From: an uncultured Acidobacteriota bacterium
GTDB lineage: Bacteria > Acidobacteriota > Vicinamibacteria > Fen-336
Direction of reading: 5' to 3'
NCBI GenBank assembly: GCA_902826455.1
Contig: CADEEV010000008.1
Span: forward strand, 1-64,000
DNA: 64,000 nt
The position numbers and the translations under genes were made by a program. The notes below the pieces were generated by a model, which saw only the letters and a program-made list of their open reading frames with translations, was not told the DNA's origin and made no database searches. Shown piece by piece: positions 2 to 46,415 of this stretch. The number at the start of each line of letters is the position of its first letter. Positions within the stretch are counted from its first letter, which is position 1.

Positions 2-610
2 GCGGCCCTCGTCCCGTACGTGGCCGCGCGGGCCCGCGTGCGGCTCGCCGACGAGGTCTCGAAGGCGGTGACGGATCTCGTCGAGAGCCGGGACAAGGAC
101 GCGGCCTTCCGCGCCGGGCGCAACCTCGTCCACCAGTCCTATCTCAAGGAGTCGGCCGCGATCGCCTCGGTGCGCGGCATCGCCGGCAAGGGCCGTGCCC
201 TGGACGGCATCGCCCGCGGCGTCGCGCGGCTCCAGGAAGGCGAGGCCCGCGACCTCGACACGCTGGAGAAGGCCTACGTCGCCATCGCCGGGAAGAACCC
301 GCCGAACGTCGAGCCGGGCAAGGTCGAGCGCGACATGATGACGCGCGTGTACGCGCCCGTCGCCGATCTCGGCGCGTACTACGACGCGATGGACGAGACG
401 AAGCCCGTGGCCGGACTCCACTCGATCCTGCTGTGGGAGGTCTTCAACTTCGCCGACGGCAAGCGCACGGCCTTCGAGGTGTACCAGGCCGTGGCGGCCG
501 AGGCGCTGTCGGCCCGCGAGTGGTACTACGGGACGGTCACCCCGGAGGCGGTGCTCGAGGCTCTCGAGGGGGCTTCGAAGGCCGGCGCCTTCACGCTGAA
601 GACGCGCTAG
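2..610 (+). CDS. C-terminal part of a possible peptidase M28-like protein (5' cut off)
   Basis: The reading frame is open from the first complete codon of the window to the stop at 608-610, so only the C-terminal ~202 residues are seen. The last ~60 residues (WEVFNFADGKRTAFEVYQAV, then a helical tail ending AGAFTLKTR) resemble the small winged-helix-like tail, with the phrase 'DG.RT..EI...V', found at the end of some bacterial M28 aminopeptidases. No catalytic region is inside the window, so the function is a guess. The stop overlaps the stop of the convergent dehydratase gene. Confidence 0.55.
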   Translation, partial: AALVPYVAARARVRLADEVSKAVTDLVESRDKDAAFRAGRNLVHQSYLKESAAIASVRGIAGKGRALDGIARGVARLQEGEARDLDTLEKAYVAIAGKNPPNVEPGKVERDMMTRVYAPVADLGAYYDAMDETKPVAGLHSILLWEVFNFADGKRTAFEVYQAVAAEALSAREWYYGTVTPEAVLEALEGASKAGAFTLKTR

Positions 611-1560
611 CTCGCGAACCAGCGCGCGGCGGCGGCGAGGTCGACGTTGCCGCCGCTGACGACCACGCCCACCCGTTTGCCGGTCACGTCCACGTGGCGG
701 CAGAACGCCGCAGCCAGCCCGAGGACGCCGGTCGGCTCGACCACGAGCTTCATGCGCTCCCAGACGAAGCGCATGGTCTCGACGAGCTCCGCGTCCGTCA
801 CGGTCAGCATGTCGTCGACGTTGGCGCGGATCAGCGGGAACGTGATCTGGCCGAGGCTCGGCGTGCGGGCGCCGTCGGCGATCGTCCGCGGGTTCTTCAC
901 CGTCTGCAGCGTTCCGGTCTTGAAGGAGCGCGTGCCGTCGTCGCCGGCCTCCGGCTCGACGCCGATCACGCGGCAGCCTGGCGCCAGGGCGCGCGCCGAG
1001 AGCGCCGAGCCCGCGAGCAGGCCGCCGCCGCCGACGCACACCAGCAGCAGGTCGAGGGGACCGGTCTCGAGGAGCAGCTCGCGGGCCGCCGTGCCGGCTC
1101 CGGCAACGACGTCCTCGTGGTCGAAGGGCGGGATCAGCAGCGGGCCGCGGCCCTGCGCCAGGCCCCGGGCGATCTCCTCGCGGTTCTCGCTGGCGGGATC
1201 GTAGGTGACGACGCGGGCGCCGTAGCCCTCGGTCGCGGCGCGCTTGGCCGCTGGCGCGTCGTTCGGCATCACGATCGTGGCCTGGGCGCCGAGCAGCTGG
1301 CTGACGAGGGCCACGGCCTGGGCGTGGTTGCCCGACGAGTAGGCGATGACGCCGCGCTCGCGGGCCTCGTCGGCGCGCTTCGACAGCGCGTTCCAGGCGC
1401 CCCGGAACTTGAAGGCGCCCATGCGCTGCAGGTTCTCGCACTTCAGGAACACGCGGCCGCCCAGGCGCTCGTCGAGGCTGCGCGACGTCGCGACCGGGGT
1501 CTTGTGGGCGACGCCTTCGATGCGCCCGGCGGCGGCTTCGACGTCGGCGTAGGTGACCAT
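607..1560 (-). CDS. Threonine/serine dehydratase-like PLP enzyme
   Basis: 317 aa, fold-type II PLP enzyme. The Lys in KFRGAWN is the expected Schiff-base lysine, SSGNHAQA is the substrate/cofactor Asn loop, and the glycine loop CVGGGGLLAG holds the PLP phosphate. This pattern is typical of short catabolic threonine ammonia-lyases and serine racemase relatives, which lack the C-terminal ACT domain, as here. The reaction is probably threonine (or serine) to 2-oxoacid plus ammonia in the cytoplasm. The ATG at 1560 is chosen because a TAGTAT box sits 8 nt upstream; an open frame continues upstream to 2022 but crosses the divergent gene. Serine racemase is the main alternative. Confidence 0.9.
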   Translation of the reverse strand: MVTYADVEAAAGRIEGVAHKTPVATSRSLDERLGGRVFLKCENLQRMGAFKFRGAWNALSKRADEARERGVIAYSSGNHAQAVALVSQLLGAQATIVMPNDAPAAKRAATEGYGARVVTYDPASENREEIARGLAQGRGPLLIPPFDHEDVVAGAGTAARELLLETGPLDLLLVCVGGGGLLAGSALSARALAPGCRVIGVEPEAGDDGTRSFKTGTLQTVKNPRTIADGARTPSLGQITFPLIRANVDDMLTVTDAELVETMRFVWERMKLVVEPTGVLGLAAAFCRHVDVTGKRVGVVVSGGNVDLAAAARWFAS

Positions 1561-1567
1561 TCTCGCC

Positions 1568-1574
1568 GATACTA
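1568..1574. promoter_or_regulatory. Overlapping divergent -10 boxes (dehydratase / DedA)
   Basis: On the minus strand TAGTAT (1574-1569), preceded by TGC, is 8 nt from the dehydratase ATG. On the plus strand GATACT (1568-1573) is 6 nt from the GTG at 1580. Both transcripts would be essentially leaderless. Inferred from spacing and similarity to the other boxes in the window. Confidence 0.6.
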
Positions 1575-1579
1575 GCAGA

Positions 1580-2538
1580 GTGAATCCCGTCTCCTTCCTG
1601 CTGCAACATCCGTACTCGGTCCTGTTCGGAGTCGTGCTCGCGGAGCAGCTCGGGCTGCCGCTGCCGGCGGCGCCGCTGCTGCTCGGCGCGGGCGCCCTGG
1701 TGGGAGCCGGCAAGCTCGACCTGACCACGGCGCTGGTCCTCGCCGTCGCGGCGTGCCTGCTCGCCGACTTCTCCTGGTACGAGGCCGGTCGGCGTCGTGG
1801 CGCCGCGGTCCTCGGGTTCCTGTGCCGGCTCTCCCTCGAGCCCGAGTCGTGCGTGCGACGCACGGAGGACGTCTTCCTGCGCCACGGCGAGCGCACGCTG
1901 CTGATCGCGAAGTTCCTGCCCGGGCTCTCGGCCCTCGCGACGCCCCTGGCCGGCGTCACGGGCGTCTCGCGCCGCCGGTTCCTGCTCCTCGACATGGGCG
2001 GCGCGCTGCTCTGGATCGGCACGTACGTCGGCCTCGGCTACGTGTTCAGCGACAGCCTCGAGTGGATCGTCGCGCGTCTCGCCGACGTGGCCCACGGCGT
2101 CACGCTGTTCGTCGTGAGCGTGCTGGTGGCCTACGTCGCGGTGAAGTTCGTCAAGCGGCGCCGCTTCCTGCACGCCTTGCGCATGGCCCGCATCAGCGCG
2201 GCCGAGCTGCGCGCCCGCATCGCGAACGGCGAGCCGCTCACGCTCCTCGACCTGCGCTCCGAGCGCGAGTACCTCGCCGACCCCGTGGCATCCCGGGCTC
2301 GCGCCACCTGCGCATCAGGGATCTCCCCGAGCGCCATGGCGAGATCCCCCGGGACCGCGACGTGGTGCTCTACTGCACCTGTCCCAACGAGGAGACGAGC
2401 GCCAGGGTCGCGCTGCTCCTGCGCCGCCGGGGCATCGTGAGAGTGCGGCCCCTCGAGGGCGGGCTCGCGGCCTGGCAGAGCCTCGCCGCGGCGCCGGCCC
2501 TCAGCGCAGGAGCGACAGTCGAAGCCGCAGCAGGTTGA
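1580..2538 (+). CDS. DedA-family membrane protein fused to rhodanese domain, frameshifted
   Basis: The first ~200 residues are a DedA/SNARE-associated membrane protein: an N-terminal re-entrant segment with EQLGLPLPAAP, the FLPGLSALATPLAG motif, and several TM helices. After ~220 residues a rhodanese domain begins (LLDLRSEREYLADP), but this frame then turns to nonsense and stops at 2440. In the next frame the domain continues perfectly: IPGSRHLRI, EIPRDRDVVLYCTCPNE with the active-site cysteine loop, RPLEGGLAAW, stop at 2538. A one-base deletion near 2288-2293 (in gtggca|tcccggg) explains this. Start: GTG 1580 rather than GTG 1553, because the -10 box lies between them. Members likely transport undecaprenyl phosphate or other lipids. 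The 3' end overlaps the convergent glycosyltransferase. Confidence 0.8.
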
Positions 2539-3232
2539 ACATGCCGGCGACGGCTTCGCGGGCGCCCATCTTGCTGCTGCCCCGGGAGCGGTCGAGGAAC
2601 GTAATCGGGATCTCCCGCAAGCCGCGGCTGCCGAGCCGCGCGACCCAGAACAGGATCTCGACCTCGAAGGAGTAGCCGGCGGAGTGCAGCCGATCGAACG
2701 GCACGCGGGCCAGGGTGTCGGCGCGATACGCCCGGTAGCCGCTCGTGCAGTCCCGCGCCGGCAGGCGGAACAGGACGCGGACGAACAGGTTCGCGGCGGC
2801 GCTCAGCACCTTGCGGTGCGGCGACCAGTCGGGCAGCCGGCCGCCGGCCACGTAGCGCGAGCCGATCGCGACGTCGCCGCCCGCGGCGAGCAGGCGCGGG
2901 ATCTCGGCGGGGTCGTGGGAGAGATCGCAGTCCATCGTGATCGCCCAGGCGGAGCCGCGCCGCAGGACCTCGCGCATCCCGGCGGCGATCGCCATGCCGA
3001 GGCCGCGCGCTCCTTCCCGGTGCAGCACGACGACGCGCGGGTCCGCGGCGGCCAGCCGGTCCGCGATGGCACCGGTGCCGTCGGGCGACGCGTCGTCCAC
3101 CACCACCACCGCGACGTGGGGCGCCGCGGCCAGGATGCGGTCCACCACGTCCTCGAGGTTCTCGGCCTCGTTGTAGGTCGGGAGCACGACCATGGCCTCG
3201 GGCGCGCCCGTCGCGGGCTGACTGCCAGTCAT
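2501..3232 (-). CDS. Polyprenol monophosphomannose synthase-like GT2
   Basis: 243 aa, single-domain family 2 glycosyltransferase of the dolichol-phosphate mannosyltransferase type. LPTYNEAENL is the N-terminal nucleotide-binding motif, VVVVDDASPDGTG and ITMDCDLSHDP carry the acidic residues, and GSRYVAGG plus FLDRSRGSSKMG are signatures of DPM1 proteins. It should transfer a sugar from a nucleotide sugar to polyprenyl phosphate on the cytoplasmic face, providing a lipid-linked donor for glycosylation or surface glycans. There is no C-terminal TM region, so it is a soluble DPM1 form. TAAGGT lies 12 nt upstream of the ATG. Confidence 0.9.
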   Translation of the reverse strand: MTGSQPATGAPEAMVVLPTYNEAENLEDVVDRILAAAPHVAVVVVDDASPDGTGAIADRLAAADPRVVVLHREGARGLGMAIAAGMREVLRRGSAWAITMDCDLSHDPAEIPRLLAAGGDVAIGSRYVAGGRLPDWSPHRKVLSAAANLFVRVLFRLPARDCTSGYRAYRADTLARVPFDRLHSAGYSFEVEILFWVARLGSRGLREIPITFLDRSRGSSKMGAREAVAGMFNLLRLRLSLLR

Positions 3233-3244
3233 CGTAAGCGCAGC

Positions 3245-3293
3245 ACCTTAGCACGCGTCCTCGCGCCAGCGAGAGCGCGGAAATTGCTATCCT
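3245..3293. promoter_or_regulatory. Divergent -10 boxes between GT2 and Rieske genes
   Basis: Minus-strand TAAGGT (3250-3245, preceded by TGC) is 12 nt from the GT2 ATG. Plus-strand TATCCT (3288-3293, preceded by TGC) is 10 nt from the Rieske ATG at 3304. No Shine-Dalgarno sequence is visible before either start. Confidence 0.55.
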
Positions 3294-3303
3294 TGCCGCT
3301 GCT

Positions 3304-45312: not shown

Positions 45313-45960
45313 CTAGTGGACGGTGTCCTTCGAGCTCTTGCCCATGACCTGGTCGAGCGCCTTCCACTGCAGGATCTCGAGCAGGCGTCGGGCGCGCTCC
45401 AGGGTCGTCGGGCAGTCGAGCAGGGACTGGCGCTCGATCGGCGTGAGGGCGAGCGTCTGGCACAGCGCGTTCACGAACACGTCGGGGGCGAGCTCCGACT
45501 GGAGGACGAGGACAGCCGGTCCGTCGCTCGCGGTGCCGATCGACGCGAGGAGCTGGGGATGCAGGGCCAGGAGATCGGCGGCGTCGCCCTTGGGCTCGGA
45601 CAGCGTCGCGACGGAGGCGATCCGATAGGACGCGCCCGGGTACTCGTTTTCGACCCGGAAGCGCGAGGTGCCGCGCAGGAGGATGTTGTAGCGGCCGTCG
45701 TCCAGGCGATCGCAGCGCTCGATGACGCCGGCGCAGCCCGTCTCGAAGATCGGCGGGCGGCCCTCGTAGTCCGCCTCGAAGCCGGGCTTCAGGAGGACCA
45801 TGCCGATGGTCTTCTCGGCCGCCATCGCGGCCTCGACCATCTCCCGGTAGCGCAGCTCGAAGATGTGGAGCGGCAGGGGCATCCCGGGGAACAGGACGAC
45901 GTTCGGCAGCGGGAAGAGCGGGATGCGGTCGGGAAGCTTAGTGCTGGTGGCCGTGGCCAT
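45313..45960 (-). CDS. Lon substrate-binding (LON_substr_bdg) domain protein
   Basis: 215 aa from ATG 45960. RIPLFPLPNVVLFPGMPLPL and HIFELRYREMVEAA are the start of the Lon N-terminal domain, with GRYNILLRGTSRFRV in the middle. There is no ATPase or protease part, so it is a stand-alone substrate-recruiting domain of unknown partner. Its first ~8 codons overlap the end of the Fe-S carrier gene in another frame; the N terminus (TATATST) is low complexity and the start is uncertain. Confidence 0.8.
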   Translation of the reverse strand: MATATSTKLPDRIPLFPLPNVVLFPGMPLPLHIFELRYREMVEAAMAAEKTIGMVLLKPGFEADYEGRPPIFETGCAGVIERCDRLDDGRYNILLRGTSRFRVENEYPGASYRIASVATLSEPKGDAADLLALHPQLLASIGTASDGPAVLVLQSELAPDVFVNALCQTLALTPIERQSLLDCPTTLERARRLLEILQWKALDQVMGKSSKDTVH

Positions 45961-46333
45961 GGGCGTGGCCGTGGCCCGCGCCGTCACCCGCCGCTTCGCC
46001 TTCGCCCTTGGCCTGGAACGAGTGGCCGCAGCCGCAGGTCGAGACCGCGTTCGGGTTCTTGATCGCGAAGCCGCCGCCGAGCAGGTCGTCCTTGTAGTCG
46101 ACCTCGGCGCCGTCGAGGTAGCGCAGGCTCATCGGGTCCACGATCACCTTGATGCCCTGGAGCTCGAGGATCTCGTCGCCTTCGGCCGCTTCGTCCAGCA
46201 CCATGCCGTACTGGAAGCCCGAGCAACCGCCGCCCTGCACGTAGATCCGGAGGCCGCCCTGGGGCAGGCTTTCCTTTTCCTGGTCCAGGATGCCCTTGAC
46301 CTTGTCCGCCGCCTTCGTCGTGAGGCTGATCAT
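45938..46333 (-). CDS. A-type iron-sulfur carrier with His-rich tail
   Basis: 131 aa from ATG 46333. LTTKAADKVKGILDQE, LRIYVQGGGCSGFQYGMVLD with the first Cys and STCGCGHSF with the two further cysteines are the IscA/ErpA signature. It carries Fe-S clusters to apoproteins in the cytoplasm. Unusually the C terminus runs into a His-Gly tail (GHGHAHGHGHQH), a likely metal-binding extension not found in standard ErpA. Annotated ATG at 46381 would sit in the -10 box, so it is not used. Confidence 0.9.
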   Translation of the reverse strand: MISLTTKAADKVKGILDQEKESLPQGGLRIYVQGGGCSGFQYGMVLDEAAEGDEILELQGIKVIVDPMSLRYLDGAEVDYKDDLLGGGFAIKNPNAVSTCGCGHSFQAKGEGEAAGDGAGHGHAHGHGHQH

Positions 46334-46415
46334 CGACTCTTTGTCTCCTCGTCGCGGGACCGGGAACACCCGCTCGAGCATCGTAGCCCATCGCCCCGGG
46401 GTTGGGAAGCGTCAC

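Follow-up and report, generated by a model that had tools for sequence, protein, structure and literature searches.

Fusions of DedA proteins (COG0586) to a rhodanese domain, recognizable as a PF09335 and PF00581 pair, are known, and the account describing them leaves their link to undecaprenyl phosphate unclear (PMC10127716). Rhodaneses with a CxU motif, where U is selenocysteine (Sec), are represented by the NCBIfam model NF041203 (rhodanese_LYCAU), which a 2026 review equates with "rhodanese-like domain-containing protein form 3" (PMC13188914). In the current study, we characterized a DedA-rhodanese gene (positions 1580-2538) in the window, by which we mean the whole 64,000-nucleotide stretch analysed, positions 1 to 64,000 of contig CADEEV010000008.1 from an uncultured Acidobacteriota bacterium (assembly GCA_902826455.1). 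Its reading frame breaks at a run of four C within the rhodanese domain, and its near relatives carry an in-frame UGA further downstream. We consider it probable that the window gene is a cysteine-for-selenocysteine descendant of a Sec-containing DedA-rhodanese, and that it separately lost one base at a later time, either recently or as an assembly error. The break is of little weight in itself compared with the family to which the gene belongs.

Among 60 genomes including the window's own, which is the only one of its genus, close orthologues were found in G003, G005, G009, and G010, which belong to the same family, and in G045, which shares only the class. In the four copies from the family (L004, L005, L006, and L007), the open reading frame (ORF) stops at a TGA right after "..YCT", giving a predicted active site YCTU, and beyond the TGA the same frame continues as P[NS]EATSARVAL...; the G045 copy (L008) reads YCSCPDEATS, with Cys at the active site. 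The UGA of the relatives lies 96 bases downstream of the window junction, and it is this true recoding codon that the earlier note on the locus had missed. At the aligned Cys column the window gene has no in-frame UGA (Table 1). Of 193 genomes of the class, 13 were matched by a five-row profile (E <= 1e-25); a sample of 396 genomes drawn from the phylum, which overlaps the class set, held 81 matching genomes. At the column in question, the 84 full-length copies from 73 genomes have U (TGA) in 37 cases, C in 42, S in four, and R in one, and 33 of the 73 genomes have a U copy. Eleven of 94 aligned rows (eight rhodanese-only and three second domains with G at the column) were left out of the counts; ten weaker full-length copies (161-183 bits), all in genomes already counted, stand outside them, and other DedA-only or rhodanese-only matches stand outside the classification. 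The relatives have an in-frame UGA at the Cys column and conserved sequence downstream of it, as selenoproteins do.

The genomes with U copies also tend to carry selB: a match over the cut-off was found in 31 of the 33 U-copy genomes vs. 4 of the 40 others (the window's genome G000, G232, G255, and G541), figures that ignore descent; the tally covered 76 genomes, and 73 of these contribute a full-length copy to the counts. G086 and G243, the U-copy genomes without such a match, possess selA and a selD with an in-frame TGA, and therefore look like Sec users whose selB was not found. It could be argued that the TGA of the relatives is an ordinary stop and that the downstream rhodanese half is untranslated, as the standard code has it and as the ORFs of the relatives and the gene callers, which stop there, suggest. 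We regard this as extremely improbable, however, since the residues past the TGA are conserved across families, the TGA occurs at a single column aligned with Cys, the U copies accompany selB, and wobble positions are frozen only over a predicted hairpin. Specifically, in the 37 Sec rows the codons +6 to +10 after the UGA are nearly fixed as AGC (29/30), GCC (36/36), CGG or CGT (31/32), GTG (25/25), and GCG (33/37), where each denominator is the number of rows bearing the commonest residue. On both sides of this block the wobble positions of the Sec copies vary freely, and the Cys copies show no such constancy at the Ser and Ala columns. In most folds the frozen codons form a predicted GCC-CGKGU-GGC stem-loop resembling a selenocysteine insertion sequence (SECIS).

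The tree and the codon comparison suggest Sec ancestry for the window gene. U and C swap at least five times on the tree, where the window gene clusters with the Sec copies L005 and L004 with Shimodaira-Hasegawa-like approximate likelihood ratio test (SH-aLRT) values of 86 and 84. Two loop codons of the window lie outside the frozen pattern, as is expected once Sec has been given up. A miscalled TGA at the TGT codon was considered and rejected: the window copy also departs from the Sec copies at the adjacent residue (EETS) and in its eroded hairpin codons, so that the Cys looks genuine. The window's own genome encodes tRNA-Sec with anticodon TCA (RF01852, 70.1 bits; also found by ARAGORN), selA (524.9 bits), selB (290 bits over model positions 2-370, at a contig end), and a selD that reads SCAGCASK where that of G005 reads SCAGUASK (TGA). 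One FdhA of this genome has Cys in CARVCHSPT, at a column that we take to be the Sec site. The genome shows the exchange of Sec for Cys in DedA-rhodanese and in selD, with Cys in FdhA too, while the Sec machinery stays. The selD and FdhA loci with Cys are at G000:C17:84469-85383 (L182) and G000:C71:15958-17652 (L189), respectively.

Several further members of the family were observed. Genome G074 holds three nearly identical Sec-type DedA-rhodanese copies (L060, L067, and L153), some of which may belong to another strain, as the genome is rated 8% contaminated. Family f26 has a second DedA-rhodanese group (L132, L136, L142, L143, and L144) with Ser or Arg at the CxU column, and L136 has an internal TAG as well. 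In genus g121, a separate small rhodanese with an in-frame TGA (YC[AS]GPTUH) lies upstream of the DedA-rhodanese (L071, 417-749; also L073 and L074), and its NCBIfam matches are all below cut-off (NF041203, 56 bits; TsoB, 48 bits). The genome contig set yielded only distant relatives in Bacteroidetes-type metagenome-assembled genomes (29-31% identity). A viral origin was rejected, as a search of viral contigs found no relative of the rhodanese half.

The window gene starts with GTG at 1580 (alternatively GTG at 1553), and its upstream frame, which runs to a stop at 2438-2440, encodes a complete DedA (VTT) domain and then the beginning of the rhodanese domain, "LLDLRSEREYLADP". The frame ending at 2538, which is -1 relative to the upstream one, encodes "GIPGSRHLRIRDLPERHGEIPRDRDVVLYCTCPNEETSARVALLLRRRGI...". 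PF09335 matched 1580-2281 with 48.4 bits (cut-off 33.9), which places the protein in DedA/VTT and COG0586, and PF00581 matched 2281-2535 alone with 36.6 bits (cut-off 22.2) over positions 30-101 of a 102-position profile, the first 29 positions of the rhodanese domain being in the upstream frame. The rhodanese Cys of YC is present in the window copy, for which sulfurtransferase activity is putative. A homology-blind codon-usage hidden Markov model (HMM), trained on 124 long ORFs of the same genome, switched frame at 2287/2288, between coding segments 1589-2287 and 2288-2504; the optimum was at 2289, positions 2282-2292 were within 2 log units of it, and the gain over staying in frame was 47 log units. 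The D-P-x-x-[ILV]-P-G of the relatives places the switch at 2281-2287, at the four-C run, where a -1 shift on C_CC.C gives exactly the residue spacing of the family. The genome profile search likewise splits the window gene at the junction (model 4-237 and 235-303), and two such adjacent pieces were found in no other full-length copy in the class and phylum profile searches. The frame break is confirmed as real in the sequence, with the switch somewhere in 2281-2292, and the earlier note, which had put the split near 2288-2293, was right within the resolution. A second intact copy was not found in the window's genome, whose only two other matches are distant DedA proteins with 30% and 25% identity. 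The comparison with orthologues that the note had proposed showed all five close orthologues to be in frame at the junction.

Table 1. Features at and around the DedA-rhodanese gene, in window coordinates.
Feature	Position	Strand	Basis
Gene presumed to be threonine dehydratase-like; divergent neighbor	607..1560	-	putative assignment
DedA (VTT) domain and first strand and helix of the rhodanese domain	1580..2287	+	PF09335, codon-usage HMM segment
Frame junction, four-C run then GTG; downstream reading is -1 vs. upstream	2281..2287	+	translation, HMM, in-frame relatives
Remaining rhodanese domain in the -1 frame, stop 2536-2538	2288..2538	+	PF00581, HMM segment
Long imperfect RNA hairpin (predicted) just 3' of the junction	2288..2358	+	folding; not conserved in Sec relatives
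TGT (Cys) where near relatives have TGA (Sec), YCT-C-PNEETS	2380..2382	+	alignment
SECIS-like hairpin codon remnant, AGC GCC AGG GTC GCG vs. AGC GCC CGK GTG GCG of Sec copies	2398..2412	+	codon comparison
Gene presumed to be glycosyltransferase-like; convergent, 38-base overlap with the 3' end of the rhodanese frame	2501..3232	-	putative assignment

As the earlier note had stated, both halves of the gene are well conserved. Before the junction 22/22 invariant columns are kept, and after it 13/15 invariant and 20/22 nearly invariant columns. The window copy is 55-71% identical to its relatives downstream of the junction and 40-55% identical in DedA, much as intact copies compare with one another. 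These figures reject a decaying rhodanese part, and what follows the junction still looks selected. The absence of decay means that the loss is very young, is not real, or is bypassed. How unusual the break is was judged by a scan of 464 kb (the 64 kb window plus 400 kb of contig C1), in which the frame-break rule flagged four places among 408 coding segments; on this scale the break exceeds what chance would give. One was the DedA-rhodanese gene, and the other three were two gene overlaps and the end of a (PT)n repeat gene; the 48-base overlap flagged at G000:C1:295349 was called a gene overlap by distance only. The flag at 45313-46381 on the minus strand of the window concerns two genes that overlap by ~50 bases via a His-Gly repeat tail, an ordinary arrangement. 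The rule detected 61 of 88 simulated one-base deletions, and with this sensitivity a single clear frame break in 464 kb indicates that the assembly is not generally frame-broken; a general indel problem is rejected on this ground. Because the window was picked for its break, no rate of frame breaks is to be drawn from it.

Two of the three readings offered by the earlier note, a recent event and an assembly error, fit the lack of decay. If the assembly or consensus alone is in error, the gene of the organism would be an intact, Cys-type DedA-rhodanese. This would agree with the preserved downstream sequence, with near relatives that are all in frame, and with the position of the C run beside a GC-rich hairpin, where base-calling can slip; however, no other clear frame break was seen in the 464 kb, and C4/G4 runs, of which the window has 377 with exactly four bases, are frequent yet not broken elsewhere. 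We give this explanation somewhat less than an even chance. A real and very recent one-base loss in the sampled strain, which would leave a fresh rhodanese pseudogene with DedA still made, has much the same chance in our estimation. Here the apparent accuracy of the assembly is in favor, and since DedA is intact and the altered tail is only ~50 residues, the loss may be tolerable; on the other hand, there is no decay at all after the junction, so a real loss must be very young.

Some observations weigh against the explanation of a Cys-for-Sec descendant with a later base loss. The SH-aLRT support for grouping the window gene with the Sec copies does not reach 95. In G003, where selB accompanies a U copy, no selA match was found at E <= 1e-20. 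When folding was compared with synonymous shuffles, the mean z was -0.55 for the 37 Sec copies and -0.09 for 41 Cys copies; this advantage is small, so the SECIS case rests on the codon freeze. Incorporation of Sec by the relatives is inferred. Finally, a strong hairpin directly 3' of the C run is what one would desire of a frameshift stimulator: a second folding test gave z -4.3, a value reached by none of 300 random 93-base pieces taken from the window, and only 6 of 1000 synonymous versions of the junction stretch were as stable.

Productive -1 frameshifting at C_CC.C (2281-2284), with the hairpin as stimulator and with DedA alone and the fusion both made, has to be considered in this light. 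C_CC.C was among 16 Z_ZZN tetramers tested in Escherichia coli, and the hierarchy with the IS3 pseudoknot was A_AA.G >> U_UU.C > U_UU.U > C_CC.U = C_CC.C > A_AA.A, with -1 rates for these six of 0.26-5.6% (PMC4066793). As there, the window offers a C_CC.C motif that is weakly active in E. coli, a stable hairpin, and a -1 continuation, here one that restores the exact family spacing. The hairpin begins 3-6 bases past the tetramer; positions 2288-2380 fold at -48.3 kcal/mol (z -3.9), and none of 200 shuffles was as stable. Of 57 stretches along the gene, the one with the lowest z (about -2.5) lies beside the junction and overlaps the junction stretch; the latter, at z -2.56, is lower than any of 179 stretches from five neighboring genes, whose minimum is -2.46. 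The hairpin is stronger than codon choice alone explains.

Nevertheless, the check for a slippery heptamer that the earlier note had proposed was negative: by eye, no X_XXZ_ZZN was found over 2265-2300, where the tetramer is the only motif, and tetramers without a stimulator were barely above background (PMC4066793). Unlike the sites of that study, the window site is known here from sequence alone and is not conserved, since the Sec relatives are in frame there and lack the hairpin. Across 83 homologous stretches the mean z was -0.05, and L004-L007 ranged from -1.6 to +1.2; only L008 was below -3 (z -4.8), though it is in frame. The junction stretch was chosen for the folding tests with the junction already known. 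A known structured RNA at the junction was rejected, as a search of 1500-3300 gave no Rfam match at E <= 1. Where a hairpin adjoins a C run, a deletion or a reading error can likewise be favored. We therefore consider productive frameshifting unlikely. Programmed frameshifting, the third reading of the note, found no support: given the lack of decay, the in-frame relatives, the missing heptamer, and a hairpin without conservation, it is less likely than a one-base loss of very recent date or an error left in the sequence. As for L008 itself, its very stable predicted hairpin lies 93 bases before the active-site codon of a Cys copy, and its genome (G045) gave no selB match at E <= 1e-60.

A more elaborate possibility is that the Sec relatives make two products, DedA with a truncated rhodanese when UGA acts as a stop and the full fusion when selenium is available, and that, after Sec was lost in the lineage of the window, a -1 shift at C_CC.C with a new hairpin took over this role, at a site 96 bases before the former Sec codon. 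We think this very unlikely; if true, a single gene would have exchanged one type of recoding for another.

Returning to the explanation that we favor, the locus would be a single gene of selenoprotein descent, encoding a membrane protein of the DedA family that ends in a rhodanese domain. Near relatives would insert selenocysteine at a UGA in the active-site loop of the rhodanese (CxU), aided by a short downstream hairpin. In the lineage of the window the Sec codon would have changed to a Cys codon (TGT), with erosion of the hairpin codons, and one base of the C run would have been lost later and separately, in the organism very recently or as an assembly error. If the loss is real, the DedA made by the cell would end in a meaningless tail, and a functional rhodanese domain would be lacking. 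An AlphaFold2 model built with 19 aligned relatives (mean predicted local distance difference test 85.7, predicted template modeling score 0.72) has a helical membrane part and a rhodanese domain; residue 266, which is the C/U column, sits in the loop that joins strand 259-263 to helix 270-281. Judged by their titles, the 50 listed PDB matches are rhodaneses or chains that contain one (best E 2.8e-05). It is conceivable that the DedA part transports undecaprenyl phosphate or a related lipid and that, at the membrane, the CxU/CxC pair undergoes persulfide or disulfide redox chemistry. Such a protein suggests that a sulfur or redox step dependent on selenium takes place at the membrane, close to the recycling of lipid carriers. 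As for gene order, the divergent neighbor of the window gene is also found beside the L005 orthologue (435-1418, minus strand).

A DedA-rhodanese that contains Sec has apparently not been described among selenoproteins. The literature on selenoproteins, rhodanese, and DedA yielded no reference to such a fusion, in a search that most subscription papers lay outside, and the terms DedA, VTT, SNARE, COG0586, and PF09335 are absent from the main text of PMC13188914 as far as it is available. Such genes occur in many families of one phylum, and ordinary gene calling would turn them into truncated DedA annotations. They also escape the existing model of CxU rhodaneses. The DedA-rhodanese relatives share with NF041203 the CxU motif in the rhodanese active-site loop, and for every DedA fusion scanned this model, a 126-residue rhodanese, gave the top NCBIfam match to the rhodanese part. 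Nonetheless, the fusions of nine relatives score 67.3-91.4 bits, below the cut-off of 115, and the rhodanese half of the window, with its Cys, scores 48.7 bits; a stand-alone relative in G272 is above the cut-off at 125.4. With the fusions of PMC10127716 the window gene shares the PF09335 and PF00581 pair. Whereas that account, in its accessible portion, makes no mention of selenocysteine, the relatives found here include copies with UGA in the rhodanese active-site loop.
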